Below are positions 10,257 to 59,367 of a DNA stretch of 61,766 nucleotides, piece by piece. Position 1 is the first letter of the stretch. Each line of letters opens with the position of its first letter. Source of the stretch: a virus. Position numbers and translations under genes: made by a program. The DNA lies in the IMG/VR virus record IMGVR_UViG_3300029787_000034, positions 1 through 61,766 of that record; one strand, 5' to 3'. A model generated the notes under the pieces. It was not told the DNA's origin and did not search any database. It saw nothing but the letters and a program-made list of their open reading frames with translations.

Positions 10257-10508
10257 ATGCCTTCACAACACTCACTTGATATTGTCAATTCCGTATTCGC
10301 AGGTCAGAAAGACCTGAGCGATTACGTTGATTCTCGCATGAAAGAACTTGCTGTAGACAGTATAGATGCACTGAAACAAGACGTTGGATCTAAAATGTTT
10401 ACACCACCTACTCCTGCTGAGACTGAAGTTGAGCCTGAAGATAGTGCGGAAACAACAACTGCTGAAACTGAGGTAACACCTGATGCTACTGATAACGGAA
10501 CAAATTGA
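10257..10508 (+). CDS. Prohead core protein, gp67-like by position
   Basis: 83 residues between portal and prohead protease, where T4 has genes 67 and 68. The N-terminal half is helical (IVNSVFAGQKDLSDYVDSRMKEL). The C-terminal half is almost entirely Glu, Thr and Pro, the composition expected of a prohead core peptide that is proteolysed. Assignment rests on position and composition. Its last 26 nt overlap gene 21. Confidence 0.7.
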   Translation: MPSQHSLDIVNSVFAGQKDLSDYVDSRMKELAVDSIDALKQDVGSKMFTPPTPAETEVEPEDSAETTTAETEVTPDATDNGTN

Positions 10509-11127
10509 TGATACTAAGGTAATCACCGAGGGTAAAGGTTCTAAGAAAAGAACTTATATCGAAGGTGTATTCCTACAAGGTGCGATCAAAAATCGTAATG
10601 GACGTATGTATCCACTGGAAACTCTAGGTAGAGAAGTACAGAAGTACAACGAAAATTACATACAAAAAGGTCGTGCAATGGGTGAGTTAGGTCATCCAGA
10701 AGGTCCAACAATTAACTTGGACAGGGTATCACACCTTATCACATCCCTTAAAGAAAGTGGAAATAATTTCGTGGGTAAAGCACGGATTCTTGACACTCCT
10801 ATGGGTCGTGTTACGAGAGAACTACTTGATGAAGGCATCAAACTAGGAGTCTCATCACGTGGCCTAGGTTCTATCAAAGAACAAAACGGTTGTAAAGTTG
10901 TTTGTGATGACTTTATACTAGCAACTGCAGCAGATATCGTTGCAGATCCATCAGCACCTGATGCTTTCGTAAATGGAATCATGGAAGGGAAAGAATGGAT
11001 TTGGGGTGGTAGCGGTGTTTCTGAGCAAAGATTGGAGACAATCAAAGACAGAATTAACTCTGCATCACGTACTCAACTTGCTGAAAGGAACGTTTCCGCA
11101 TTTGATGCGTTCTTAAAAAGTCTATAA
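10483..11127 (+). CDS. 21: Prohead core protease (gp21)
   Basis: 214-residue serine protease that trims core and capsid proteins during maturation. N terminus GVFLQGAIKNRNGRMYP is typical. The catalytic His lies in GELGHPEG (His71), the Ser in GVSSRGLGS (Ser124 or Ser125), and a conserved acidic segment ADIVADPSAPDAFVNG follows. The ATG is inside the preceding gene, implying coupled translation of core and protease. Confidence 0.95.
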   Translation: MLLITEQIDDTKVITEGKGSKKRTYIEGVFLQGAIKNRNGRMYPLETLGREVQKYNENYIQKGRAMGELGHPEGPTINLDRVSHLITSLKESGNNFVGKARILDTPMGRVTRELLDEGIKLGVSSRGLGSIKEQNGCKVVCDDFILATAADIVADPSAPDAFVNGIMEGKEWIWGGSGVSEQRLETIKDRINSASRTQLAERNVSAFDAFLKSL

Positions 11128-11137: not shown

Positions 11138-11177
11138 ACTATAGCAATAACCTTATTTGTATATTCGAGGAGACAAC

Positions 11178-12215
11178 ATGTCTAAGGAAAAAGACAATCT
11201 TGATGAAAACGCAGTCACTAAGAATGCGAAACCTGGCGATGCAATGCCAAAATCTGAAACTGGAACTCCTGGTCAAGGTGTACAGGATTTAGGTGGACCT
11301 ACTCCATTTAATTCTAAACCAGACGACGAATCCAATAAGTACAAGACTGGTGGCGGACCAACAGCAACACCTCCACAAACAAAACCATCTGATGCATCAG
11401 CACAGAAGGCAGAGTTTAGCACTGCAGGTGATGTAAAGGCAGGTCACGAACCTGAAGGTGAAGTTATTGCCGAAGATGATACAACAGAAACAATCGAAAT
11501 CGATTTATCATCTGATGTTGCTGCTCTTACTGAAGGAGAAGATCTTTCTGAAGAGTTTAAGGAGAAAGCGAAAACAATTTTCGAAGCAGCAGTTATCTCC
11601 AAAATAAACGAAGAACTAGAACGTATGCATACTGATTATGCAAAAGTCCTAGACGAAGAAGTCGAGACTATTAAGACCGAGCTTGCAGAAAAGGTTGACG
11701 AGACTCTTAAGTACCACGTAGAGCAGTGGGTTAAGAATAACGAACTCGCAATCGAGCACGGAATTAAGACTGAGATGGCAGAATCTGTCATGTCTGGACT
11801 CAAACAGGTTTTTGTCGAGAATTTCATTGATCTTCCCGACGAAAAAGTTGACTTAGTTGACGAAATGACTAAGCAACTCGATACTATGGAAACTAAACTC
11901 AACGAACAAATCGAAGAGAATGTCGGACTATCTAACGAGGTCGGCAATTATATCAAGAATGGGATCGTGAACGAGCTAAGCGGAGGACTTTCCCTCGCAC
12001 AGAAGGAAAAGTTACAATCTCTTGCAGAAGCTGTTGAGTTCGAGAATGAAGATGCTTATCGTGAGAAAATAAACACTCTTAAAGAGTCTTATTTCTCTAC
12101 CAAACCTGCGGCTGCTGAGGAGAAATCCGATGAAGTCACAATTGAGGGAGATAATGGTGCTACTGGTGACGCAATGTCTCACTACGTAAATGCATTATCA
12201 CGTTGGGGCAACTAA
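11178..12215 (+). CDS. 22: Prohead scaffold protein (gp22)
   Basis: 345-residue scaffold. The first ~110 residues are low-complexity and Pro/Gly-rich. The rest is highly charged and predicted alpha-helical or coiled-coil (EELERMHTDYAKVLDEEVETI onwards), as in T4 gp22. I chose the ATG preceded by GAGGAGAC over the upstream TTG. Several (L/I)xE sites for the gp21 protease occur. Position between protease and capsid genes is diagnostic. Confidence 0.93.
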   Translation: MSKEKDNLDENAVTKNAKPGDAMPKSETGTPGQGVQDLGGPTPFNSKPDDESNKYKTGGGPTATPPQTKPSDASAQKAEFSTAGDVKAGHEPEGEVIAEDDTTETIEIDLSSDVAALTEGEDLSEEFKEKAKTIFEAAVISKINEELERMHTDYAKVLDEEVETIKTELAEKVDETLKYHVEQWVKNNELAIEHGIKTEMAESVMSGLKQVFVENFIDLPDEKVDLVDEMTKQLDTMETKLNEQIEENVGLSNEVGNYIKNGIVNELSGGLSLAQKEKLQSLAEAVEFENEDAYREKINTLKESYFSTKPAAAEEKSDEVTIEGDNGATGDAMSHYVNALSRWGN

Positions 12216-12258: not shown

Positions 12259-13605
12259 ATGTTTAATTCAGAATCATTGCAGGAAAAGTGGAAACCCATT
12301 TTAGATCACTCTGAGATAGATGATATCAAAGACGGATATAGAAAGGCAGTTACCTCTGTCCTGTTAGAAAACCAAGAAAGATTTTTAAGGGAAGAAGCAG
12401 GTGTGCTTAATGAAGCATCACCAACAATGTCTGCAGGTACAGCAGGTTTCAGTGGTTCATCTACTGCAACTGGTCCTGTAGCAGGTTTTGACCCAGTTTT
12501 AATCTCATTAATCAGAAGATCAATGCCTAAGCTTATTGCTTATGACATTGCAGGTGTACAACCAATGACAGGTCCTACTGGACTTATCTTCGCAATGAGA
12601 TCACGTTACGGTACTAACCGTACAGCTGGAACTGAAGCGTTCTTTAACGAAGCAGATTCCGAGTTCTCAGCAGAGAACGCAGCTAGCGACCTAGGAAGAA
12701 CAGCACAGTCTGGATCTAACCCAGGACTTCTAAACGCATCTGGTACATACAATACATCAGACGGAATGCCTACAGCAGAAGCTGAAGCATTAGGTGATGC
12801 ATCTGGTAACCAGTTCGCTGAAATGAACTTCAGTATTGAGAAAGTTACTGTGACTGCTAAGTCCAGAGCACTCAAGGCTGAGTACAGTTTAGAACTAGCA
12901 CAAGACCTTAAGGCAGTTCACGGTTTAGACGCTGAGTCTGAACTAGCAAATATCCTCTCAACAGAAGTACTTGCTGAAATCAACCGTGAAGTTGTAAGAT
13001 CTGTATACAAAGTCGCAAGACCTGGTGCACAGAACAACACAGCAACTGCAGGTGTCTTTGACCTAGACGTTGACTCCAACGGTAGATGGTCAGTTGAGAA
13101 GTTTAAAGGTCTTCTATTCCAGATAGAAAGAGACATGAACGCTATCGGGCACGAGACAAGACGTGGAAAGGGCAACATCTTAATTTGCTCTGCTGACGTT
13201 GCATCTGCTCTATCAATGGCTGGTGTACTTGACTACACTCCTGCTCTAGCTGGTAACTCAAACTTACTTCCTGATGATAATAGCAGCACACTAGCTGGTA
13301 CATTAAACGGAAGAATCAAGGTATACGTTGATCCTTATTCAGCAAACGTAAGTGACAGACACTTCTACGTTGCAGGATACAAAGGTTCATCTGCATACGA
13401 CGCAGGACTGTTCTACTGTCCTTACGTTCCACTCCAAATGGTCAGAGCCGTTGGTCAGGATACATTCCAACCAAAAATTGGCTTTAAGACTCGTTACGGT
13501 ATGGTTGCTAACCCATTTGCGGAAGGCACTGACCAAGGCGGTGGAGATCTTGATCCTAACAAGAACAGATACTACAGAAGAGTTCTTGTTGACAACCTAA
13601 TGTAA
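12259..13605 (+). CDS. 23: Major capsid protein (gp23)
   Basis: 448-residue HK97-fold capsid protein. Signatures include LIRRSMPKLIAYDIAGVQPMTGPTGLIFAMRSRY, EMNFSIEKVTVTAKSRALKAEYS and GFKTRYGMVANPFAEG. The N-terminal delta region ends near GVLNE, followed by a Gly/Ser-rich arm (PTMSAGTAGFSGSS) that is probably exposed after gp21 cleavage. A near copy of that arm occurs in the protein at 54598. A strong terminator follows at 13631. Confidence 0.97.
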   Translation: MFNSESLQEKWKPILDHSEIDDIKDGYRKAVTSVLLENQERFLREEAGVLNEASPTMSAGTAGFSGSSTATGPVAGFDPVLISLIRRSMPKLIAYDIAGVQPMTGPTGLIFAMRSRYGTNRTAGTEAFFNEADSEFSAENAASDLGRTAQSGSNPGLLNASGTYNTSDGMPTAEAEALGDASGNQFAEMNFSIEKVTVTAKSRALKAEYSLELAQDLKAVHGLDAESELANILSTEVLAEINREVVRSVYKVARPGAQNNTATAGVFDLDVDSNGRWSVEKFKGLLFQIERDMNAIGHETRRGKGNILICSADVASALSMAGVLDYTPALAGNSNLLPDDNSSTLAGTLNGRIKVYVDPYSANVSDRHFYVAGYKGSSAYDAGLFYCPYVPLQMVRAVGQDTFQPKIGFKTRYGMVANPFAEGTDQGGGDLDPNKNRYYRRVLVDNLM

Positions 13606-38248: not shown

Positions 38249-40957
38249 ATGACAGACTTTATTAGCAGACATATCGGTCCATCTGAGGATCAGCAGACTC
38301 AAATGTTAAATGACTTGGGTCTTTCTAGTCTTGATGAACTAGTACGAAAGGTTGTACCAGACTCTATACTCCTAAGGGGTAAGAGTAACCTACCAGAACC
38401 ATGCACTGAGCATGAAGCACTGGAAGAACTGAAACGAATAGCGAAATGTAATATCAATAGAAGAACACTTATAGGTCAAGGATACTATGGAACCATCTGT
38501 CCTCCAGTTATACAGAGAAATGTTCTTGAGAATCCAGCTTGGTACACATCTTATACTCCATATCAGGCAGAGATATCTCAAGGAAGACTAGAAGCATTAT
38601 TTAATTATCAGACTCTAATCACAGAGTTGACTGGATTACCTGTTGCTAATGCATCATTGTTAGATGAAGGAACTGCAGCAGCAGAAGCAATGATAATGGC
38701 ACATGGTACTGGTGAAAAGAAAGGATTTCTAGTAGATAGTAATATATTTCCACAGACATTAGAGGTACTAAAGACTAGAGCAACACCATTAGGTATCAAT
38801 ATAATCAAACTAGATTTAGAAGACACCATACCACTCTGTGACTTCGAAGATTCCTTTGGTGTACTGGTACAGATGCCTAACAATCTAGGTAACATCAGAC
38901 CTTGTAATGGTTTGTTGAGATGTGCTGAGGTTTACAAGTGTATGAAGATTGCTATTGTAGATCCTCTAGCACAGGTGTTGATGCAACCTGTAGGAGAGAT
39001 GGGATTTGATATTGCTGTAGGTAGTATGCAGAGGTTTGGTATACCTATGGGTTTTGGAGGACCTCATGCAGCATTCTTTGCAACCACTGAGAAATATAAA
39101 CGAAAGATTCCTGGCAGAATTGTAGGACAGTCTCTAGACTCCCAAGGTAATAAAGCACTACGACTAGCATTACAGACAAGGGAACAACACATAAGACGAG
39201 ACAAAGCAACGTCCAATATATGCACTGCTCAAGCACTCCTCGCAAATATGGCAGGTTTTTACGCTGCTTATCACGGTTCGGAAGGTCTGACAAAAATATC
39301 AAATAGAATATTGGGATATAGACAAACGTTAATACAAGCATTAAAGTGGTGTGGTTTCGAGGTTGATGATAGTGAGGGGTTTGATACGGTTAGGTGGAAG
39401 ACCTCACGTATAGTTGATGATATTAATATAAGGTATATTGATGGGTATGCATTAGTATCGTTAGATGAACTAACAACTTACGATGAACTCAATAAAATTA
39501 TTGCTTCGCAAACAGATTTCTCTGCAGATAAAAACACTATAGAGCATGTAGCGAAGGGAGTCAAGGACTACTTCTGGTTGGGTACACCTAGAAGAACTAA
39601 ACCATGGTTACAACAAGAAGTATTTAACAAGTATCATAGTGAAACTGATATGATGAGGTACATGTATGAGTTAGTCTCTAAAGATTTCTCATTAGTAAAT
39701 GGAATGATGCCACTTGGTAGTTGTACTATGAAACTAAACTCAGCATCAGAACTAATGCCATTGAGTTGGGACAAGATGAATATACATCCCTTCGTTCCTA
39801 CAGGACAGGTGTATGGTTACACTAAGATTATGAATGATCTAGAGAAATGGTTATGTGATATCACAGGATTTCATTCGGTAACGTTACAACCTAACGCAGG
39901 TTCACAGGGTGAGTATGCAGGACTCTTAGCGATCAGAGAGTATCACATGAGTAGAAATGAAAAACGTTATGTGGTTCTGGTACCAGAGAGTGCACATGGA
40001 ACTAACCCTGCTAGTGTCGTCATGGCAGGTATGAAAGTTGTAACTGTCAAGTGTGATGAGAATGGTAACATAGACATGGCAGACCTAGAGAAGAAAGCAA
40101 TCATGAATACCTTTGAGTTGGCAGCGATCATGATTACATACCCTTCCACTCATGGTGTATTTGAGTCAACCATACGTCAGATATGTAAGATAGTCCATGA
40201 CAATGGTGGTCAAGTATATCTTGATGGTGCGAATCTAAATGCACAAGTTTGTCTAGCAAAACCAGGTGAGTATGGTGCTGATGTAATGCATATGAATCTA
40301 CATAAAACTTTCTGCATCCCTCATGGTGGTGGAGGACCAGGTGTAGGACCTGTTGGTGTTGCAGAACACCTAGCACCATTTGTAGATCAAAGAGTATCAG
40401 CAGCAGAACAAGGTAGTGCATCTATACTTGTCATTAGTTGGATGTACATACGTATGATGGGTGAACAAGGATTACGTAAAGCATCTGAGGTTGCATTGCT
40501 CAATGCTAATTGGTTAGCGAAGAAGATAGAACCATTTTTTAACGTATTATATAAAGGAGAGAATGATCTAGTAGCACATGAATGTATCTTTGACTGTCGT
40601 GGGTTGCCAGTAACAGCAGAAGACATAGCGAAGAGACTGATGGACTATGGGTTCCATGCTCCCACACTATCATGGCCAGTGTTAGGAACTATGATGGTAG
40701 AACCTACAGAGTCAGAGTCACTAGATGAGTTGCAAAGATTTGTAGATGCTATGGAGAGTATCCGACATGAGATATTCACGAAGAAAGAACTGCTAAAGAA
40801 TGCTCCACACACTGCAGAGATGTTATGTGGTAAGTGGGACTATCCTTACAGTCGTGAGGCAGCATGCTACCCTGCAAAGGGTAGGAAGTTCTGGCCAGCA
40901 GTCAGTAGAATAGATAACGTAACTGGTGATCGTAACTTGATTTGTGCATGTAGTTGA
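38249..40957 (+). CDS. gcvP: Glycine dehydrogenase (decarboxylating), P protein
   Basis: 902-residue PLP enzyme of the glycine cleavage system: decarboxylates glycine and passes the aminomethyl group to the lipoyl H protein. Both halves are complete: FISRHIGPSEDQ at the start, then ANASLLDEGTAAAEAM, GFGGPHAAFFAT, and in the second half LGSCTMKLNSASEL, LQPNAGSQGEYAGLL, YPSTHGVF and HMNLHKTFCIPHGGGGPGVGPVGV with the PLP lysine at residue 686. Slightly short of cellular GcvP (about 950-980). No gcvT, gcvH or lpd in the window, so it must work with host partners. It stands alone between two terminators. Confidence 0.96.
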   Translation: MTDFISRHIGPSEDQQTQMLNDLGLSSLDELVRKVVPDSILLRGKSNLPEPCTEHEALEELKRIAKCNINRRTLIGQGYYGTICPPVIQRNVLENPAWYTSYTPYQAEISQGRLEALFNYQTLITELTGLPVANASLLDEGTAAAEAMIMAHGTGEKKGFLVDSNIFPQTLEVLKTRATPLGINIIKLDLEDTIPLCDFEDSFGVLVQMPNNLGNIRPCNGLLRCAEVYKCMKIAIVDPLAQVLMQPVGEMGFDIAVGSMQRFGIPMGFGGPHAAFFATTEKYKRKIPGRIVGQSLDSQGNKALRLALQTREQHIRRDKATSNICTAQALLANMAGFYAAYHGSEGLTKISNRILGYRQTLIQALKWCGFEVDDSEGFDTVRWKTSRIVDDINIRYIDGYALVSLDELTTYDELNKIIASQTDFSADKNTIEHVAKGVKDYFWLGTPRRTKPWLQQEVFNKYHSETDMMRYMYELVSKDFSLVNGMMPLGSCTMKLNSASELMPLSWDKMNIHPFVPTGQVYGYTKIMNDLEKWLCDITGFHSVTLQPNAGSQGEYAGLLAIREYHMSRNEKRYVVLVPESAHGTNPASVVMAGMKVVTVKCDENGNIDMADLEKKAIMNTFELAAIMITYPSTHGVFESTIRQICKIVHDNGGQVYLDGANLNAQVCLAKPGEYGADVMHMNLHKTFCIPHGGGGPGVGPVGVAEHLAPFVDQRVSAAEQGSASILVISWMYIRMMGEQGLRKASEVALLNANWLAKKIEPFFNVLYKGENDLVAHECIFDCRGLPVTAEDIAKRLMDYGFHAPTLSWPVLGTMMVEPTESESLDELQRFVDAMESIRHEIFTKKELLKNAPHTAEMLCGKWDYPYSREAACYPAKGRKFWPAVSRIDNVTGDRNLICACS

Positions 40958-48157: not shown

Positions 48158-48404
48158 AATTATGGATCAAGGTCCTTATCGTTTTGTTCACACAGATAAG
48201 AGACTTGAGAACGGTAAACTAGATTACCGTATACAGAAGTACAACACATGGACGCAACGTTACAATGACATGTACTTACTAGACAGTTCACTACAGTTGG
48301 ACTGCTGTCTGGAGGACAAGGAATATACTAAGTGGTTAGACCCAGATCCTGAGGTCTCTGCATACAAAAAGAGAGGAGACGTTGTTAGGTCTCCCTATAA
48401 ATAA
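48144..48404 (+). CDS. Hypothetical protein, 86 aa
   Basis: ATG 48144 (MKLTKIMDQGPYRFVH); the longer alternative start is rejected as it overlaps the preceding gene more. Aromatic and basic (YRIQKYNTWTQRYNDMYLL). Its last codons contain the TATAAATA late promoter of the next unit, and the terminator begins at its stop. Confidence 0.6.
   Translation: MKLTKIMDQGPYRFVHTDKRLENGKLDYRIQKYNTWTQRYNDMYLLDSSLQLDCCLEDKEYTKWLDPDPEVSAYKKRGDVVRSPYK
48396..48403 (+). promoter_or_regulatory. Late promoter TATAAATA (perfect T4 consensus)
   Basis: Exact TATAAATA at the end of the preceding gene. Predicted +1 is 48409, inside the terminator stem, giving an 18-nt leader to the GTG at 48427. Confidence 0.65.
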
Positions 48405-48425
48405 GAGGGTAACACCCTCTTTTTT
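48404..48425 (+). terminator. Intrinsic terminator of the gp41-mazG operon
   Basis: 7-bp stem AGAGGGT/ACCCTCT with an AAC loop and six Ts. It begins one base after the late promoter motif. Confidence 0.85.
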
Positions 48426-48426
48426 C

Positions 48427-49260
48427 GTGGCAAATAAAGGATTGCAGTTTGAGTGGTCAGTATTACACCATGCACTATCACGTGTTGGTGATCCATCTGA
48501 ACTCTCATCGGAACAAAATGTAACTCGTCTTAAGGCAGCAGATGAAGTCAGTAAGATGGGGGAATCTTCTGCTGTGTCACAAGCAGGTCTGCAAGTCATT
48601 AATCAGATAAAACCTGGTGGGTTTGCTGCAGAACAATTATTCTATAAATCATTTATGAAGATGGGTGGTGGTGCTAATGAAGGGAAGACAGATATAATTT
48701 TCAGCAAAGGTGGTACGAAATATAAATGTAGTATGAAGTATGGTAATGATTATCAACTTACGTCAGCAGGTATAGATAAATCAATTAAGATTCTGACTGG
48801 TATATTAAAACTAGTAGCAAATAAGTATGGAACTAGAGACGATGCGATGTGTTTAGGATATCTTCAGTTAGTACTAGAAGAGATCTCTAATAAATTTGAG
48901 AACAACACAGGAACTATTACTGCTGCAGAGGCAGACAGACTTATGAGTAGCACAAGAGAGAACCTAGGACTAGAGTCTAGATTACAATCTATTCTAGGAA
49001 CTAGAAAGAACCCTACCACATCAGGAGTCTATTCTAAATTTAAGTATGAACTAACTAAAGAATGTTTAACTGGTGAGATGACATTTGGTGGTGGTGACAA
49101 AGTTGCTACTCATGTACTCACAGAGTCTGGTGTCAAACCTATAGATGGTAAATTAATTAATGAGGTTATGGCTAGAGCAGGTGTTCGTATCAGCAAAAAG
49201 GGACGCAAAGCTAAAGGTGGTGTTAAGATGAACGCCATTACCATTAGATATGAGGTATAA
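48427..49260 (+). CDS. Late protein with possible PD-(D/E)XK-like nuclease core
   Basis: 277 residues from GTG 48427 (M-ANKGLQFEWSVLHH); the TTG upstream would precede the late promoter's +1. The segment GGANEGKTDIIFSKGGTKYKCSMKYG followed by DYQLTSAG resembles the D...(E/S)xK core of restriction-like nucleases, with Ser in place of Glu. The rest is helical. First gene of a late cassette with two nucleotidyltransferase-like proteins. The fold is inferred from a short pattern only. Confidence 0.6.
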   Translation: MANKGLQFEWSVLHHALSRVGDPSELSSEQNVTRLKAADEVSKMGESSAVSQAGLQVINQIKPGGFAAEQLFYKSFMKMGGGANEGKTDIIFSKGGTKYKCSMKYGNDYQLTSAGIDKSIKILTGILKLVANKYGTRDDAMCLGYLQLVLEEISNKFENNTGTITAAEADRLMSSTRENLGLESRLQSILGTRKNPTTSGVYSKFKYELTKECLTGEMTFGGGDKVATHVLTESGVKPIDGKLINEVMARAGVRISKKGRKAKGGVKMNAITIRYEV

Positions 49261-49267
49261 TTAAGAC

Positions 49268-50452
49268 ATGGCAAAGAACACACACCTAGAACATTTAGAA
49301 GATGACCTGATCAACCAAGGGTATCAGGGTGGTTTAAATGCTATTAATTTTATTGAGTCTCTTTCTGATATGCTAGACAGTGGTGGAAAGGGTGCAAGGG
49401 TTACTGTCAAATGGGATGGTGCCCCTGCTATTGTATGTGGTAGGACTCCTCAAGGGCAGTTTTTTGTAGGAACTAAATCAGTATTTAATAAAGGACAACC
49501 AAAGATCGGATATGATCATGATCTTATAGACTACCATTACGAAGGTAGTGTTGTTGGGACTATCCTTCATGAAGTATATGATCAACTAAAGAAACTACCA
49601 TTTAAAGGTGTACTACAAGGTGATCTCTTATATACTAAGACACCTCCTATTACAAAGATGGGTGGCAATACAGTATATAAATTCAGACCAAACACTATCA
49701 CATATGCAGTTGATGCATACAGTGAACTGGGTCAGAAGATAGGTGCATCCAAGTTGGGTATAGTATTTCATACGAGTTACACAGGTGAAAGTGTAGAGAA
49801 TATGTCTGCAGCATTTGGTGTGGATGTATCGCATTTACAGGGAGTTAAGGATGTAGCAGTACTATCATCTAACTTTGAGAATGTAGGTGGAGTAGCAACA
49901 CTCAGTACCACTGAGAAAGTACAAGTAAAACAAAACATTCGTAATGCTAAGATTGGTATGACTAAGGGTAGATCTTTCCTCGATTTGCTAGGTGGCACAA
50001 GACCTTTCGAGTATACTGCACTGTTTAAAGTATACTTTAACCAAGTTATTAGAACAGGTAAGGTTCCAAAGACTGCTGCACTGTTACATAAAGGGTTCGA
50101 AGTCTTTGTATCACAGCGTTTTGACATGGAGATTGCTAAGAAAAAGACTGAAAAATCTAAGGAACAATGGAAGAAAAAGAAACAAGAGTCCCTCAAGTAT
50201 CTAAATAGTAACAAAACTGCCATACATAATGCTATGAGTGCCTTCCAGTCTCTAATAACTGCGAAGAAAATTATCATCCGACGCTTAGAGAAAGTGAAAG
50301 GTATTGGTACATTCATAGAAGACGAATCTGGTTACCGAGTTACAAGTCCTGAGGGATACGTAGCAATTAAAAATGGTACGGCTATCAAACTTGTTGATAG
50401 ATTAGAATTCTCTAAAGCAAACTTTACTGTGGCAAAGAACTGGTCAAAATGA
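49268..50452 (+). CDS. Ligase-like nucleotidyltransferase (KxDG motif)
   Basis: 394 residues. VTVKWDGAPAIVCGR matches motif I (KxDG) of the ATP-dependent ligase and capping-enzyme superfamily, with the Lys likely adenylated. FKGVLQGDLLY and VFHTSYTG look like motifs III and IIIa, and EGYVAIKNGTAIKLV is reminiscent of motifs IV and V. The C-terminal third is a Lys-rich helical domain (KKKTEKSKEQWKKKKQ). Similar proteins are usually unnamed in cyanophages (DUF6267-type). Target, DNA or RNA, unknown. Confidence 0.65.
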   Translation: MAKNTHLEHLEDDLINQGYQGGLNAINFIESLSDMLDSGGKGARVTVKWDGAPAIVCGRTPQGQFFVGTKSVFNKGQPKIGYDHDLIDYHYEGSVVGTILHEVYDQLKKLPFKGVLQGDLLYTKTPPITKMGGNTVYKFRPNTITYAVDAYSELGQKIGASKLGIVFHTSYTGESVENMSAAFGVDVSHLQGVKDVAVLSSNFENVGGVATLSTTEKVQVKQNIRNAKIGMTKGRSFLDLLGGTRPFEYTALFKVYFNQVIRTGKVPKTAALLHKGFEVFVSQRFDMEIAKKKTEKSKEQWKKKKQESLKYLNSNKTAIHNAMSAFQSLITAKKIIIRRLEKVKGIGTFIEDESGYRVTSPEGYVAIKNGTAIKLVDRLEFSKANFTVAKNWSK

Positions 50453-51666
50453 TTCACTTTAATCAATTCATAACTGAAACAACACCTGCACAGGGAACAG
50501 TATCACAACCTGCTAAGAAGAAACCTGTACCTAAGTCTCAGCAACCAGAGGACAAGCATGTTGCGATCACTTTTGGTAGGTTTAACCCACCTCATGCAGG
50601 TCATGGTAAACTTATGGATGCTGTTAAAGCACATGGTGGTGACTCAGGTAACTATAGAATCTATCCTAGTAGAACGCAAGATCATAAGAAGAATCCTTTG
50701 AGTGCTGATCAGAAGGTTGATCACATGCGTAAGATGTTTAAGAATCATAAGGATAAGATACAGAATTCAGAACAGCATAGAAATATATTTGACATACTAC
50801 GTGACCTCAATGATGAAGGACATGAACATGTAACAATGGTAGTCGGAGACGACAGAGTAAAAGAATTTCAGAAGTTAACGCAGAAATATAACGGTGTACA
50901 CTACGACTTTAAGTCTGTTAATATCAAGTCAGCAGGTGCTAGAGATCCAAATTCAGATGATCCAATAGAAAAACTATCAGCATCAGCACAGAGAAAGCAT
51001 GCACAGGGTGATGACCATGACTCCTATCATGCAGGAATGCCAAAAGGATTTAAGAAGTCAGACTCTATGAAGATGATGGCAGATGTAAAGACAGGTATGA
51101 CACCTCCTAAGAAACCATCACAGAAACTTAAGAAGAAAACTCCTGCTACTCCGAAGAGTGAAGCATGGGAATACTCACCTAAGTTACACATGTATGAGTT
51201 CAGAGAACACTACATGGAGCATGAAGTTTTTTCAGTTGGTACTCTAGTAGAGCATGATGACAGTGGTATACGTGGTGTTATAGTACACCGTGGTACTAAT
51301 CATGTTGTCTTTAAGGATGATGAAGGTGAAGAGTTTAAAGCATGGTTGCATCATGTAACTGAGGTTGTAGAGTTAGATGAGATAGCAATGGCAAGGAAAA
51401 AGGACAACCCATACTCTAAGCGTAAGATACTTAAGATGCTTATCAGGTCAGTTGCTGAGAAAGAAAGATCTAAAGCAGGTGTGACAAGAGAAGAGAAAGA
51501 AAAGGGAGATCAAAGTAACTATTCTGCTGATGATGGTAGTGGTAATACATGGAAGATCGGCACTGATGAGTACAGAAAAGCAGTGCAGGACATGACTCCA
51601 GGTCAGGGAACTACCAAGTTTGGGGTTAAGTTTAACGACTTTAGAAAGGCTGCACAGCCTAAATAA
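50449..51666 (+). CDS. HxGH nucleotidyltransferase-like late protein
   Basis: 405 residues. After a Pro/Lys linker, VAITFGRFNPPHAGHGKLMDAV is the HxGH signature of cytidylyl- and NMN-adenylyltransferases (Rossmann-like), and TMVVGDDRVKEF fits a following strand. The middle (residues ~190-240) is Lys/His-rich and disordered. A small beta domain follows (GTLVEHDDSGIRGVIVHRGTNHVVFKDDEG), then a basic tail. The ISTxR-type motif is not obvious, so activity is uncertain. ATGA overlap with the ligase-like gene. Confidence 0.7.
   Translation: MIHFNQFITETTPAQGTVSQPAKKKPVPKSQQPEDKHVAITFGRFNPPHAGHGKLMDAVKAHGGDSGNYRIYPSRTQDHKKNPLSADQKVDHMRKMFKNHKDKIQNSEQHRNIFDILRDLNDEGHEHVTMVVGDDRVKEFQKLTQKYNGVHYDFKSVNIKSAGARDPNSDDPIEKLSASAQRKHAQGDDHDSYHAGMPKGFKKSDSMKMMADVKTGMTPPKKPSQKLKKKTPATPKSEAWEYSPKLHMYEFREHYMEHEVFSVGTLVEHDDSGIRGVIVHRGTNHVVFKDDEGEEFKAWLHHVTEVVELDEIAMARKKDNPYSKRKILKMLIRSVAEKERSKAGVTREEKEKGDQSNYSADDGSGNTWKIGTDEYRKAVQDMTPGQGTTKFGVKFNDFRKAAQPK
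51659..51665 (+). promoter_or_regulatory. Late promoter CTAAATA
   Basis: Overlaps the stop of the HxGH gene. Predicted +1 is 51671, 20 nt before the next ATG. Confidence 0.65.
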
Positions 51667-51690: not shown

Positions 51691-52374
51691 ATGATCACAA
51701 CAAATATTGCTGCTAAACTCATAGGTTATTCTATGGAAGAGCAGATTAAAATAACTAAATGTGTTGACCATAACACAGCTGCTCCTACAAAACGCATGCA
51801 GGAGACAGTTGATGCTATAATTAAGATCATCGATGAATCTCCAATACAACCCGCCTTTGAGGGATACGCAGGTTTCCCGATTGATAAGGAAGCAATTGAC
51901 AAGAACAAACGTAAGTCACCTGACGATCGTAATATTGGTAGAGTAGTATCACAAGGTGGTAACTCTATGGTTATTACAGGTCGTAAATCAGATGGACGTT
52001 ACGTAGTCGTTGGAAAGAAGGGTGAGAAAACTGCTAAACATCAAGAAGACATTGGTGTCCAAGGACCCAAAGAGTCTGTTGACTATAGTATAGATATAGA
52101 AGACTTACATAATCTTATGAAAGAAGCAATGACCGTCACTAATGCTGACAAGAAAGGTAACACACCCGCTTGGCAGAATTACAAGAAGGGTATGAAATCC
52201 AAGACATCTGGCAAACCTATGTACAAGGCTGCTGATCATGTCAAAGAGGAAGAGTTAAAAGAATACTCTGATACTGGTTGCTCAACACCAAGTAAGCCTA
52301 AGAAAAAGAAGAAGGCATACAAAGAAGAGAAATACGATTGGCGTGCAGCACTTGAGGAGGTCAGGAATGGCTAG
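51691..52374 (+). CDS. Basic late protein, 227 aa
   Basis: Begins MITTNIAAKLIGYSMEEQIK. A central beta segment (GRVVSQGGNSMVITGRKSDGRYVVVGKKGEK) is flanked by helices. The C terminus is strongly basic (KPKKKKKAYKEE). The style suggests a virion or core protein that contacts DNA. No enzymatic motif seen. Overlaps the next ATG by 8 nt. Confidence 0.6.
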   Translation: MITTNIAAKLIGYSMEEQIKITKCVDHNTAAPTKRMQETVDAIIKIIDESPIQPAFEGYAGFPIDKEAIDKNKRKSPDDRNIGRVVSQGGNSMVITGRKSDGRYVVVGKKGEKTAKHQEDIGVQGPKESVDYSIDIEDLHNLMKEAMTVTNADKKGNTPAWQNYKKGMKSKTSGKPMYKAADHVKEEELKEYSDTGCSTPSKPKKKKKAYKEEKYDWRAALEEVRNG

Positions 52375-54229: not shown

Positions 54230-54601
54230 ATGAGATTTGATCATCTAGATGAGAAGAATCATTTGATGTTCGCAATCAAGTACTATGAGAATCCACAGTC
54301 GGTGACTGTGGATGACTTCATGGAAGACATGAAGAAGTTTAAGTATCTGAAGAGACTACTTAAACGTTACCTCAAGACAGGTGTATTGCGTACTAATTTA
54401 ATTCTAAATCATTTAATCGTACTATACAACGTCTTTGGCGAGGGTACACTCCCTTTATTAATGTACAAACTTGAGCCTGAGTACTATCCTGCAGTGAAAA
54501 CCTTCTTGATATATTTGAGTAGGTATCCAGAGAACAACGGTGGTGTTCTAGAGGAAGTGGATCTTGATGAAGAAATTTACACACAGTTAAGAAAGTTGTG
54601 A
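54230..54601 (+). CDS. Conserved phage protein (DUF7207-like), 123 aa
   Basis: Helical protein with MFAIKYYENPQSVTVDDFMEDMKKFKYLKRLLKRY and NHLIVLYNVFGEGTLPLLMYKLE, which I associate with a family conserved across T4-like phages. Function unknown to me. Ends at a GTGA overlap. Confidence 0.7.
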   Translation: MRFDHLDEKNHLMFAIKYYENPQSVTVDDFMEDMKKFKYLKRLLKRYLKTGVLRTNLILNHLIVLYNVFGEGTLPLLMYKLEPEYYPAVKTFLIYLSRYPENNGGVLEEVDLDEEIYTQLRKL

Positions 54602-55005
54602 ACGAAGAAGGACCAACAATGAGTGCAGGTACAGGAGGTTTTAGCGGTAGTGCTAATGCTGCAGGTCCTGTTGCAGGGTTTGATTCTTTGTTAGGTTCTA
54701 ATAGTGAGAAGAAACCTCGTCTACGTAAGAGGAAATTTAAGAAGCAAGTGAAAGAGGCATTGGTGCTAGGTCACCTCAAGCCTGATGCAGAGAAAGCAGA
54801 TGGAAAATATCTCCCCTTTAAGATATGCTATGATTACGCACAAGAATATGTACTGTATGGTAAGTCAGAAGCCGATGTTAAAATACAGTTACGAAAGATT
54901 TACAGACCAGAGAACCACAAGAAGATACAAGTGAAACGTCTGTACCCAAATGAAGTGATCAAGTTTTACTATGATTTGAGAAGGAAGGCACTCCAAAATC
55001 AGTAA
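54598..55005 (+). CDS. Late protein carrying a gp23-like N-terminal arm, 135 aa
   Basis: GTG start at a GTGA overlap (ATG 54619 would cut into the conserved arm). Residues 2-31 match the exposed N-terminal arm of the major capsid protein at 22 of 30 positions (PTMSAGT.GFSGS..A.GPVAGFD). The rest is a basic helical domain (RLRKRKFKKQVKEAL, IQLRKIYRPENHKK). Likely a capsid-associated protein; the arm may be a gp21 processing or capsid-docking element. Confidence 0.65.
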   Translation: MNEEGPTMSAGTGGFSGSANAAGPVAGFDSLLGSNSEKKPRLRKRKFKKQVKEALVLGHLKPDAEKADGKYLPFKICYDYAQEYVLYGKSEADVKIQLRKIYRPENHKKIQVKRLYPNEVIKFYYDLRRKALQNQ

Positions 55006-56394: not shown

Positions 56395-58700
56395 ACATCA
56401 GCGTAGTAAAGCGTAATGGGGTGGTCGAGCCTCTAAATCTCGACAAGATTCATACTATGGTTGAGTATGCCTGTAATGATCTCGCAGGAGTATCAGAGTC
56501 ACAGGTAGAAATGAACTCAAACATCCAGTTCTATGATCAGATAGAAACATCTGACATCCAAGAGATTCTTATCAAGTCTGCTAATGACTTGATCTCTTTA
56601 GACACCCCTAACTATCAATACGTTGCAGCAAGACTATTATTGTTTGGACTGCGTAAGCAAGTCTACAAGGGGCACCCAGACAATCCTCCAGTACTAAAAG
56701 ACCATGTTGAGAACTGTATTACTCAGGGTGTATACGACCCTAGTCTCCTTAAAGTATATTCTGAAAGCGAATGGCAAGAACTTAATGGATATATTGATTA
56801 TGATAGAGATTATATGTTTACATATGCAGGTCTTAGGCAGGTCGCAGATAAATATCTAGTACAAGATCGCAGTACATCACAGGTCTATGAGACCCCGCAG
56901 CAGATGTACATCATGATTGCTGCCACACTCTTCCAAAAATATCCTATAGAAACGAGATTAGATTATGTCAGACGCTACTACGAAGCAATCAGTAGACACA
57001 GAATCAACATCCCAACGCCAGTCATGGCAGGGGTCAGAACCCCTATTCGTCAATTTGCATCTTGTGTTCTGGTTGATATTGATGACACCCTCGATAGTAT
57101 CTTTAGCAGTGATATGGCTATTGGCAAATATGTCGCACAGAGGGCTGGTATCGGTATTAACGCAGGTAGAATCAGGGGCATCAACAGTAAAATCAGAGGT
57201 GGGGAAGTACAACACACAGGTGTTGTCCCCTTCCTTAAAAAGTTCGAGTCAACTGTTAGATGCTGTACTCAAAACGGTATCAGAGGTGGGTCGGCCACTG
57301 TCCACTTCCCTATTTGGCACCAAGAAATCGAAGACATCATCGTCCTCAAAAACAACAAAGGGACGGAAGACAACAGGGTAAGAAAGTTAGACTACAGTAT
57401 TCAGTTCAGCAAACTATTCTATGAAAGATTTATCCAAAATAAAGAAATCACGTTATTTTCCCCTCATGATGTTCCTGCTCTTTATGAGAGTTTTGGGACC
57501 GATAAGTTTGATAGTTTATACTGCCAGTATGAATTGGATGAATCCATCCCCTCCACAAGAGTCAGTGCAAAAGAATTAATCCTTGCCATCCTTAAGGAGA
57601 GATCAGAGACAGGTCGTTTATACATCATGAACATAGACCACTGCAATGAGCATTCATCCTTTAAAGATATGGTAAGGATGAGTAACCTATGTCAGGAGAT
57701 CACTCTACCTACAGATCCTATCAATCATATTGATGATGCAGGTGGGGAGATAGCATTGTGTATTCTATCTGCTATCAATGTAGGTAAGATCAATAACCCA
57801 TCACAGATGGAAGAACTATGTGACCTAGCAGTCAGAGGACTAGAAGAACTAATTGACTATCAGAACTATCCAGTTCTTGCTGCTGAACGTAGCACACTAG
57901 CACGTAGATCATTAGGTGTAGGGTACATAGGTCTAGCACATTACCTTGCTAAGAACAACGTTAAGTATGATGACCCTGCTGCATGGCAGTTAGTTCATGA
58001 CCTTACTGAGTCCTTCCAGTTCTATCTCTTACAGGCATCTAACCAGATAGCAATAGAGAAAGGTGCATGTGATGGGTTCTCTGGAACTAAATACTCAGAT
58101 GGAATACTACCTATAGATACCTACAAGAAAACAGTAGACACTATAGTTCAGAATAATCTGAAGCATGATTGGGAATCTCTTAGAACATCTATCATGGAGA
58201 ACGGTCTCCGACACAGTACACTGTCCGCACAAATGCCATCGGAGAGCAGTTCCATTGTGTCTAATGCAACCAACGGAATCGAACCCCCAAGGGATTATCT
58301 GTCCATTAAAAAGTCTAAGAAAGGTCCACTCAAACAGATAGTTCCGTCCTATGGAACACTTAGGAATAATTACACGCTATTGTGGGATATGCCTAGCAAT
58401 ACTGGTTATATTAATATTGTTGCTGTTATGCAGAAGTTCTTTGATCAAGCGATTTCTGGAAACTGGTCGTACAACCCAGAGAATTATGAAAATTCTGAGG
58501 TTCCTGTTTCGGTAATGGCAAATGATCTTTTAACTACATATAAGTACGGTTGGAAAACTTCTTACTATCAGAACACATATGATAGCAAGAAAGATGTTGA
58601 TGAACCTGTACATATACAGGATCAGTCCGTTAGATTAAACAACTTAGTAGAAGATATACTGAGTGGAAGTGAAGAAGAATGCGAGGCATGTAATGTTTAG
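56391..58700 (+). CDS. nrdA: Ribonucleotide reductase class Ia, alpha subunit (NrdA)
   Basis: 769 residues. Reduces ribonucleoside diphosphates to deoxyribonucleotides. N-terminal ATP-cone (ISVVKRNGVVEPLNLDKI), then active-site Cys in QFASCVLVDIDD, MSNLCQEI (Asn, Cys, Glu of the thiyl site) and GGEIALCILSAINVG (partner Cys). The C terminus ends with the redox pair CEAC. ATG 56391 chosen over TTG 56379; it overlaps the gp61 stop by 4 nt. The stop overlaps the heme oxygenase ATG by 8 nt. Confidence 0.96.
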   Translation: MNISVVKRNGVVEPLNLDKIHTMVEYACNDLAGVSESQVEMNSNIQFYDQIETSDIQEILIKSANDLISLDTPNYQYVAARLLLFGLRKQVYKGHPDNPPVLKDHVENCITQGVYDPSLLKVYSESEWQELNGYIDYDRDYMFTYAGLRQVADKYLVQDRSTSQVYETPQQMYIMIAATLFQKYPIETRLDYVRRYYEAISRHRINIPTPVMAGVRTPIRQFASCVLVDIDDTLDSIFSSDMAIGKYVAQRAGIGINAGRIRGINSKIRGGEVQHTGVVPFLKKFESTVRCCTQNGIRGGSATVHFPIWHQEIEDIIVLKNNKGTEDNRVRKLDYSIQFSKLFYERFIQNKEITLFSPHDVPALYESFGTDKFDSLYCQYELDESIPSTRVSAKELILAILKERSETGRLYIMNIDHCNEHSSFKDMVRMSNLCQEITLPTDPINHIDDAGGEIALCILSAINVGKINNPSQMEELCDLAVRGLEELIDYQNYPVLAAERSTLARRSLGVGYIGLAHYLAKNNVKYDDPAAWQLVHDLTESFQFYLLQASNQIAIEKGACDGFSGTKYSDGILPIDTYKKTVDTIVQNNLKHDWESLRTSIMENGLRHSTLSAQMPSESSSIVSNATNGIEPPRDYLSIKKSKKGPLKQIVPSYGTLRNNYTLLWDMPSNTGYINIVAVMQKFFDQAISGNWSYNPENYENSEVPVSVMANDLLTTYKYGWKTSYYQNTYDSKKDVDEPVHIQDQSVRLNNLVEDILSGSEEECEACNV

Positions 58701-59367
58701 TAAAAAACTGAAGGAGGGGACATCCAAGTCCCATTCTGCAGCAGAGAATACCAAGTTTGTATCATCGTTTCTCCGAGGGGTCTTAGATCCTGAGGAGTAT
58801 CGTAAGTTATTAGCAAACTTCTATTTTGTCTATGACACTATGGAAAGAGAGGTCAAAAGTTCCAAGGATCCTATCGTTGGAGAACTAAAGCAATGGTCTA
58901 GAGAATTAAACCGTGTACCATTTCTAGAAAGAGATCTCTTATATTATTATGGTCCCAACTGGAAGGATGTGATAGAACCATCCTCTGCATGTGATACCTA
59001 CTGTTGGCGAATCAAACAAGTAGCACATGATGAACCCTATCTTTTAGTAGCACACCACTACACACGTTACATAGGTGACTTATCTGGTGGTCAGATACTA
59101 AGAAAGATAGCAGAGAAAGCATTAAAACCTCCTCTAGGTGAGGGGTTAATGTTCTACGAGTTCCCTTGTATTGATGATGCAAAGGAATGGAAGACAAATT
59201 ACAAATCTGTGTTAGACTCTATGGAGTTTAATACACAAGAAGAAAATGCTCTAATCACTGAAGCAAACTATGCGTTCAGACTTAACATGTATATGTTCGA
59301 TGAGGTACAGGGCAGTGCCACTAAATCATTATTAAAAGTATTATGGGGATTTTTAACAGGTAAGTAA
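58693..59367 (+). CDS. ho1: Heme oxygenase (HO1 type)
   Basis: 224 residues. Cleaves heme to biliverdin IXa, CO and Fe2+ with ferredoxin electrons. Proximal His14 lies in KEGTSKSHSAAENTKFVSSFL and the distal helix motif is YTRYIGDLSGGQILRKIA. Length fits cyanobacterial HO1 (about 240). It starts inside nrdA and its stop overlaps the nrdB ATG by one base, so it is translationally embedded between the two RNR subunits. Its product is the substrate of PebS and PcyA at the start of the window. Confidence 0.95.
   Translation: MFSKKLKEGTSKSHSAAENTKFVSSFLRGVLDPEEYRKLLANFYFVYDTMEREVKSSKDPIVGELKQWSRELNRVPFLERDLLYYYGPNWKDVIEPSSACDTYCWRIKQVAHDEPYLLVAHHYTRYIGDLSGGQILRKIAEKALKPPLGEGLMFYEFPCIDDAKEWKTNYKSVLDSMEFNTQEENALITEANYAFRLNMYMFDEVQGSATKSLLKVLWGFLTGK

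Follow-up and report, generated by a model that had tools for sequence, protein, structure and literature searches.

What would a marine T4-like phage gain from keeping a nuclease, a ligase-like protein and a nucleotidyltransferase side by side behind a late-promoter-like element, and where would such enzymes act? The question is raised by positions 48396 to 51666 of IMG/VR record IMGVR_UViG_3300029787_000034, a 61.8 kb virus record that we analysed at its full length (the window) and that is a fragment of a T4-like cyanophage closest to P-RSM6 (Kyanoviridae). Marine T4-like phages infect Prochlorococcus, Synechococcus and SAR11, and two of the proteins concerned, DUF6267 (ORF2; present in 467 phage records) and the cytidylyltransferase (ORF3; 526 phage records), are among their commonest unexplained genes. 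The three open reading frames (ORFs), ORF1, ORF2 and ORF3, adjoin or overlap on the plus strand, as an earlier note on this DNA had correctly described (Table 1). We favour, tentatively and at a little less than an even chance, a model in which this late cassette delivers enzymes to the host inside the phage head. ORF3 would be drawn into the prohead core by an N-terminal peptide, freed by the gp21 protease after FITE and ejected with the DNA; ORF1 would be a restriction-enzyme-fold DNA nuclease whose allele is often exchanged; and ORF2 would form a lysine-AMP and partner the nuclease allele beside it. Nuclease and partner would then, as our best guess, attack DNA of the host or of rival phages, or process it, and the nuclease would diversify under that conflict.

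The case for packaging starts with the first ten residues of ORF3, MIHFNQFITE, a predicted capsid-targeting sequence. In phage T4, the first ten residues of internal protein IPIII are sufficient for packaging, positions 4 and 7 mattering for targeting and positions 8 and 10 for cleavage by gp21 (PMC9026906). Both IPII and IPIII start MKTYQEFIAE (read from NC_000866), and ORF3 has M1, F7, I8 and E10 in common with IPIII, plus an aromatic residue at position 4. The corresponding tag pattern (aromatic at 4 and 7, I or L at 8, E at 10) is found in one of the 63 ORFs of the window, namely ORF3, and in none of 1500 shuffles. Among cyanophages it marks 68 of 136 nucleotidyltransferases against 1 of 321 other known genes, and among phages of heterotrophs 25 of 63 nucleases, 31 of 94 DUF6267 proteins and 21 of 124 nucleotidyltransferases against 0 of 89 other genes, counts that come from related rather than independent sequences and that the strict pattern keeps too low. 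In these heterotroph-phage relatives the tag may sit on any of the three proteins, mostly on one, and at one locus (L292) on all three; tags of relatives include MLTFHVFITE/A, MRFIQFIRE/A and MKYSQFITE/A. The window also encodes a gp21-type prohead protease and a gp22-type scaffold, and its gp23 contains a plausible LNE/A site. Our literature search found no paper that makes the capsid-targeting-peptide point for cyanophages. As a separate observation, a 135-amino-acid ORF at 54598-55005 starts MNEEGPTMSAGTGGFSGSANAAGPVAGFD, resembling the region of gp23 (12259-13605) where the mature protein probably begins: a copy of the capsid-protein leader on a different protein.

A targeting peptide of this kind would explain a finding already made in purified cyanophage virions. 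The S-CREM2 (OR473000) proteins with a textbook tag are an S-adenosylmethionine (SAM) hydrolase, a kinase, a 78-amino-acid protein (these three at L316 and L322) and the cytidylyltransferase; mass spectrometry detected 52 proteins, from about 221 annotated features, and all four are among them. By our arithmetic the chance of this is about 0.003, a figure to be read knowing that "textbook" was judged after the list had been seen and that a looser pattern picks up 19 ORFs, mostly short spurious frames. The kinase of S-CRM01 carries the tag MISFDQFLSE (L110:7667-10132), and the S-CREM2 paper refers to a virion kinase of S-CRM01. The tagged nucleotidyltransferase of S-SZBM1 was detected in its virion list, where two other tagged ORFs (165 and 109 amino acids) are not evident by length. 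The authors working on S-CREM2 and S-SCSM1 left it undecided whether the virion protein is cargo or contaminant (PMC9602691, PMC10665884), and the peptide would be a simple answer. The earlier note had suspected, from late expression and basic tails, that the products act on packaged DNA, DNA ends or RNA in the virion. For ORF3 this connection is borne out by the targeting peptide and by homologues in published virion proteomes; it is unsupported for ORF1 and ORF2 in this clade, whose S-SZBM1 homologues are missing from the virion list. All three proteins are basic (isoelectric point (pI) 9.3-9.6), and the tails are not needed as a packaging clue, because the N-terminal tag accounts for packaging.

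ORF1 had been read as a restriction-type nuclease from a D...SxK segment. We rejected the bare pattern as evidence, since it is present in 42-78% of shuffled proteins and the motif alone therefore proves nothing; the reading nevertheless gains support, because D...SxK is near-invariant across divergent homologues and because of the predicted fold. In an alignment of 26 sequences the invariant residues are E9, K87, T88, D89, S102, K104, Q110, L111, S113, G216 and K258, and the family, which we call F1, has 44 unique members among the collected loci. The AlphaFold2 model is confident (predicted local distance difference test (pLDDT) 89; predicted template modelling score (pTM) 0.86), and in VIA-align it matches HinP1I at Z 9.9 (190 residues, root-mean-square deviation 4.8), MspI at Z 9.0 (189 residues, 5.1) and HhaI at Z 6.6. 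These three enzymes, HinP1I with two entries, make up the top four matches, well above the next row, the PD-(D/E)XK homing enzyme I-Ssp6803I at Z 4.2, and ORF1 is therefore most likely, on its modelled structure, a PD-(D/E)XK enzyme akin to HinP1I and MspI that has a serine before x-K. Other searches returned less: Foldseek alone gave no significant PDB match for the model, PDB sequence searches with ORF1, ORF2, ORF3 and slot allele F5 gave nothing credible, PADLOC and NCBIfam gave no match for ORF1 or ORF2, and a BFVD search connected ORF1 to a single S-RIM8 protein (E 2e-3).

ORF1 occupies a polymorphic slot. Among 248 DUF6267 loci with sufficient upstream sequence, 242 have an ORF of at least 180 amino acids just upstream of DUF6267, in ten BLAST families, and six have none; one family (F9, 7 loci) is the gp41 helicase, which leaves 235 loci with a slot gene from nine families, overlapping or closely adjoining DUF6267 in nearly all of them. 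Profile comparison links only F7 with F10 and F2 with F6 clearly, giving seven groups, and the slot of S-RIM8 holds a further allele with no similarity to F1, bringing the unrelated groups to about eight. Divergent families have few near-invariant residues, and these include D and S-x-K (E-x-K in F3): D104/S117/K119 in F1 (family-alignment numbering), D258/S306/K308 in F2, D212/S226/K228 in F4, D170/S185/K187 in F5 and D238/S252/K254 in F7. A PADLOC type II restriction endonuclease model matches allele F5 (3.8e-10). We predict that all slot alleles are nucleases of one broad superfamily, the fold model having been made for F1. Some T4-like phage contigs with this locus are filed under bacterial or archaeal assemblies (L279-L314); one of them, a 188 kb contig in Nonlabens xiamenensis, has a slot nuclease identical to that of a viral contig (L026).

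The nuclease is exchanged frequently, and often together with DUF6267. The window and its near-twin L010 are 98% identical over the 300 bp preceding the start codon, their nucleases are unrelated (F1 and F5), their DUF6267 genes are 58-74% identical along the length of the DNA (66% in protein), and their nucleotidyltransferases return to 99-100% beyond the first comparison window. The exchange has a sharp upstream border at the start codon. Across locus pairs whose nucleotidyltransferases are at least 90% identical, mean DUF6267 identity falls from 95.9% in the 122 pairs that share a nuclease family to 85.6% in the 25 pairs that do not, as against 93% and 96% for gp41/MazG; the pairs are not independent, and linkage alone could yield part of this co-change. 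Several pairs confine their divergence to the first, catalytic half of DUF6267. The pattern suggests, from sequence comparison, that nuclease and DUF6267 work together.

What DUF6267 contributes is indicated by its predicted core. Among 64 sequences, down to 27% identity, K48, D50, G51, Q117-G118-D119, E362-G363, V365 and K374 are invariant, and by our own assignment these blocks would correspond, in order, to motifs I, III, IV and V of covalent nucleotidyltransferases. RNA and DNA ligases make up most of the best 50 structural rows for the ORF2 model (pLDDT 83), led by the Naegleria gruberi RNA ligase (Z 7.7 over 181 residues), with T4 Rnl2 at Z 6.3. The model thus supports a covalent nucleotidyltransferase/RNA-ligase fold, divided by a basic helical insert (about 214-341; residues 205-345 have pI 10.4), and the KxDG ligase or capping-type protein proposed earlier holds up, with an invariant lysine. 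The same features could be turned to nucleic-acid end repair: the nuclease would trim, DUF6267 would seal ends or adenylylate them via lysine-AMP, and ORF3 would replenish NAD+ or a different adenylated cofactor. Injected together with the genome, the set would serve to protect incoming DNA or host RNA, or to repair them. Phages do use RNA ligases and NAD-linked repair (PMC9503650), the nearest folds to ORF2 are RNA ligases with motif III/IV/V-like residues, and the nucleotidyltransferase motifs of ORF3 are conserved. We consider this improbable, though worth serious attention: a repair nuclease need not switch family between near-identical phages, the cassette has no kinase or phosphatase partner, and neither DUF6267 nor the nuclease was found in the S-SZBM1 virion. 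A natural fusion of DUF6267 to the nucleotidyltransferase (phrog_455) was set aside. The S-PM2 records AJ630128 and NC_006820 (L101) have a split DUF6267 with its second half joined to the nucleotidyltransferase, and the fusion may be a sequencing artefact, since LN828717 shows a single match over DUF6267. DUF6267 as a gene of cellular genomes was likewise discounted: its 36 loci in cellular genome contigs, to judge from gene neighbours, resemble marine phage contigs in bins or assemblies.

The identity of ORF3 as an HxGH nucleotidyltransferase, also anticipated in the earlier note, is upheld by its conserved active-site motifs and predicted fold. GRxNPP..GH and SAS..R are conserved at 0.99-1.00 across 188 domains; the (H/T)xGH and SxSxxR signatures of the superfamily are both present in ORF3, with G, H, S, S and R at 0.99-1.00. 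The homologous virion protein of S-SCSM1 and S-CREM2 has been read as a nicotinamide mononucleotide adenylyltransferase (NMNAT; PMC9602691, PMC10665884). An injected NMNAT might raise NAD+ during infection, the other two genes being a separate matter. ORF3 does match NMN adenylyltransferase models weakly, scoring 25.8 bits against the equivalog cut-off of 112.45 for TIGR00482 and 18.9 against 341 for TIGR01526; a glycerol-3-phosphate cytidylyltransferase was proposed for the S-SZBM1 virion protein, and the NAD+ reading takes no account of the conserved gene order. We find this account doubtful. Beside the catalytic domain, a small C-terminal domain of ORF3 (residues 250-318; 51196-51402) matches phrog_4808, which several cyanophage records name "ribonucleotide reductase alpha subunit", a name that looks wrong.

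A more elaborate, virion-delivered conflict system seems to us unlikely. In it a polymorphic restriction-type nuclease would have a ligase-fold adenylyltransferase of its own, serving it for immunity or modification, a constant HxGH enzyme would supply the activated nucleotide, and the tag would move among subunits so that the complex is packaged. Least probable of all is that selfish free-standing endonucleases of the homing type settle in the slot and are carried along beside an unrelated core gene. The variety of unrelated alleles in a single position behind a sharp upstream border, and the fifth-ranked I-Ssp6803I match, would fit; a slot gene so regularly present and so close to DUF6267, capsid-targeting peptides on the nuclease homologues of heterotroph phages, and best fold matches to restriction rather than homing enzymes speak against it. 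As to movement, which would favour this reading if the nuclease travels by itself, it moved without DUF6267 in WH25-B and together with DUF6267 in the window, L010 and other pairs.

Delivery in the capsid would favour enzymes that act as infection begins, whether on components of the host or on resident or competing DNA, and a nuclease packaged with DNA would need to spare its own genome. GCGC, CCGG and CGCG are indeed absent from the window (21, 21 and 14 expected), as they are from P-RSM6 and the L015 contig, but relatives whose nuclease is different, or which have no nuclease, lack them too. S-SM1, with an F1 nuclease, does contain GCGC, and CCGG is absent from all 13 sampled cyanophages regardless of nuclease and present in S-CREM2. 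We therefore rejected palindrome avoidance as a guide to nuclease specificity. S-SM1, for its part, is without GTAC (0 vs 170).

Several observations thus weigh against the head-delivered attack model. We saw no DNA word whose avoidance tracks the nuclease allele; avoidance follows phage clade, so restriction of a fixed site is unsupported, and either the specificity is not a short palindrome, or the nuclease is not in the head here, or protection is of another kind. There is no methyltransferase among the cassette genes, and the cassette does not qualify as a restriction-modification system. To these are added the missing S-SZBM1 homologues of DUF6267 and the nuclease, nucleotidyltransferases of the P-HM2 type that have no tag, the slot of P-RSM6, four relatives and S-CRM01, which holds no nuclease, and structural scores for ORF2 below Z 8, middling or weak taken alone, for which the ligase-fold case is made by uniformly ligase matches and invariant motifs. 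WH25-B has a 96% S-IOM18-like nuclease beside a DUF6267 of only 78%, so the pair is separable. The earlier note had held that independent occurrence of the three genes would tell against a common system, and this is partly the case: the nuclease is swapped for unrelated alleles, and in P-SSM2, ACG-2014f and Bellamy the genes for DUF6267 and the nucleotidyltransferase are not neighbours. It is because site avoidance follows clade and not nuclease allele that we hold the attack model, packaging of ORF3 included, no higher than just short of even.

The region in front of the cassette combines a late-promoter-like element with a terminator hairpin. A perfect sequence element had been noted here, and it is present; the exact octamer TATAAATA is neither enriched (3 on the plus strand of the window against 1.7 expected, not significant) nor conserved upstream of the cassette in relatives. 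A shorter form, [AC]TAAATA, is conserved: 132 of 152 loci have it within the 90 nt that precede the cassette, compared with 58 of 1520 random positions, and because the loci are related the p value is a guide only. In the clade of the window the heptamer lies directly before, or on, the 5' arm of a terminator hairpin, AAGAGGGTAACACCCTCTT, which the earlier note did not include. By analogy with T4 late promoters, a late transcript with its start a few bases further on would not contain the whole hairpin and so would escape termination, while read-through from upstream would be stopped.

Table 1. Features of the cassette and of the head-assembly genes considered with it (window coordinates)
Feature	Position	Strand	Support
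Late-promoter-like element TATAAATA; conserved form [AC]TAAATA	48396..48403	+	
Terminator hairpin AAGAGGGTAACACCCTCTT with T run, directly behind the promoter element	48403..48425	+	layout repeated in about a dozen relatives
ORF1, 277 aa (amino acids), GTG start; predicted restriction-enzyme-fold nuclease, variable slot gene, family F1	48427..49260	+	phrog_22045, 6e-80
ORF1 D89 to S102-x-K104, candidate catalytic residues	48691..48738	+	invariant, 26 aligned homologues
ORF2, 394 aa; DUF6267, predicted ligase/capping-enzyme nucleotidyltransferase fold	49268..50452	+	Pfam DUF6267, 6e-124
ORF2 motif I, K48-W-D-G, predicted adenylated lysine	49409..49420	+	K48, D50, G51 invariant, 64 sequences
ORF3, 405 aa; HxGH cytidylyltransferase/NMNAT-superfamily protein	50449..51666	+	CTP_transf_like PF01467, 8.8e-9
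ORF3 residues 1-10, predicted capsid-targeting sequence, prohead-protease site after E10	50449..50478	+	
ORF3 nucleotidyltransferase motif GRFNPPHAGH	50575..50604	+	
ORF4, 227 aa, next gene	51691..52374	+	S-SZBM1 gene at equivalent place 457 aa, in published virion proteome
gp21-type prohead protease (Peptidase_S77), expected to cut the targeting peptide	10483..11127	+	E 2e-32
gp22-type scaffold (T4_CASP), expected docking partner of the targeting peptide	11157..12215	+	E 2e-75

The cassette has gp43, uvsX, gp41 and mazG upstream and ORF4 and a head protein downstream, and this gene order is common to the window, P-RSM6 (whose DUF6267 is 67% identical to ORF2), S-SZBM1, S-WAM1, S-SM1 and S-PM2. 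P-SSM2, Bellamy and ACG-2014f (L276, L277, L278) have a short DUF6267 of about 300 amino acids with no adjoining nucleotidyltransferase and no large slot gene. Elsewhere the window encodes a 902-amino-acid glycine dehydrogenase, gcvP (38249-40957; PF02347, 7e-169), and a heme oxygenase (58663-59367; PF01126, 2e-67).

Our findings suggest that the targeting peptide offers a testable rule for which proteins marine T4-like phages inject, one that fits the SAM hydrolase and kinase of S-CREM2, and that the nuclease slot is a collection of restriction-fold candidates awaiting characterisation and also marks phage conflict. New here are the capsid tag, the slot with its polymorphic restriction-fold genes and the observation that nuclease and DUF6267 are often exchanged jointly; we found no close precedent for the combination, whose parts are of known kinds. 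ORF1 has the predicted whole-chain fold and D...x-K catalytic layout of HinP1I, MspI and HhaI, but differs from them in its serine before x-K, its extra conserved E9 and Q110, the lack of detected sequence similarity, and the lack of a methyltransferase partner and of matching site avoidance. DUF6267 resembles ATP-dependent RNA ligases (the Naegleria RNA ligase, RNA editing ligase and T4 Rnl2) in its predicted core, KxDG and EGxV motif, and departs from them in a long basic helical insert and an Asp for Glu at the motif III-like position, with no sequence similarity to solved ligases detectable. The "cytidylyltransferase / NMNAT-like" proteins reported by mass spectrometry in purified virions of S-SZBM1, S-CREM2, S-SCSM1 and S-CBWM1 are homologues of ORF3, and the publications, in the parts available, did not note a targeting peptide. 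The nearest model for packaging is provided by the T4 internal head proteins IPI, IPII, IPIII and Alt: like them, ORF3 is a basic protein with a ten-residue N-terminal peptide in the same register, encoded in one genome with a gp21-type protease and a gp22-type scaffold. It differs from them in being an HxGH nucleotidyltransferase from a conserved operon (relatives can have the tag on a nuclease or DUF6267 as well), and its processing is a prediction.

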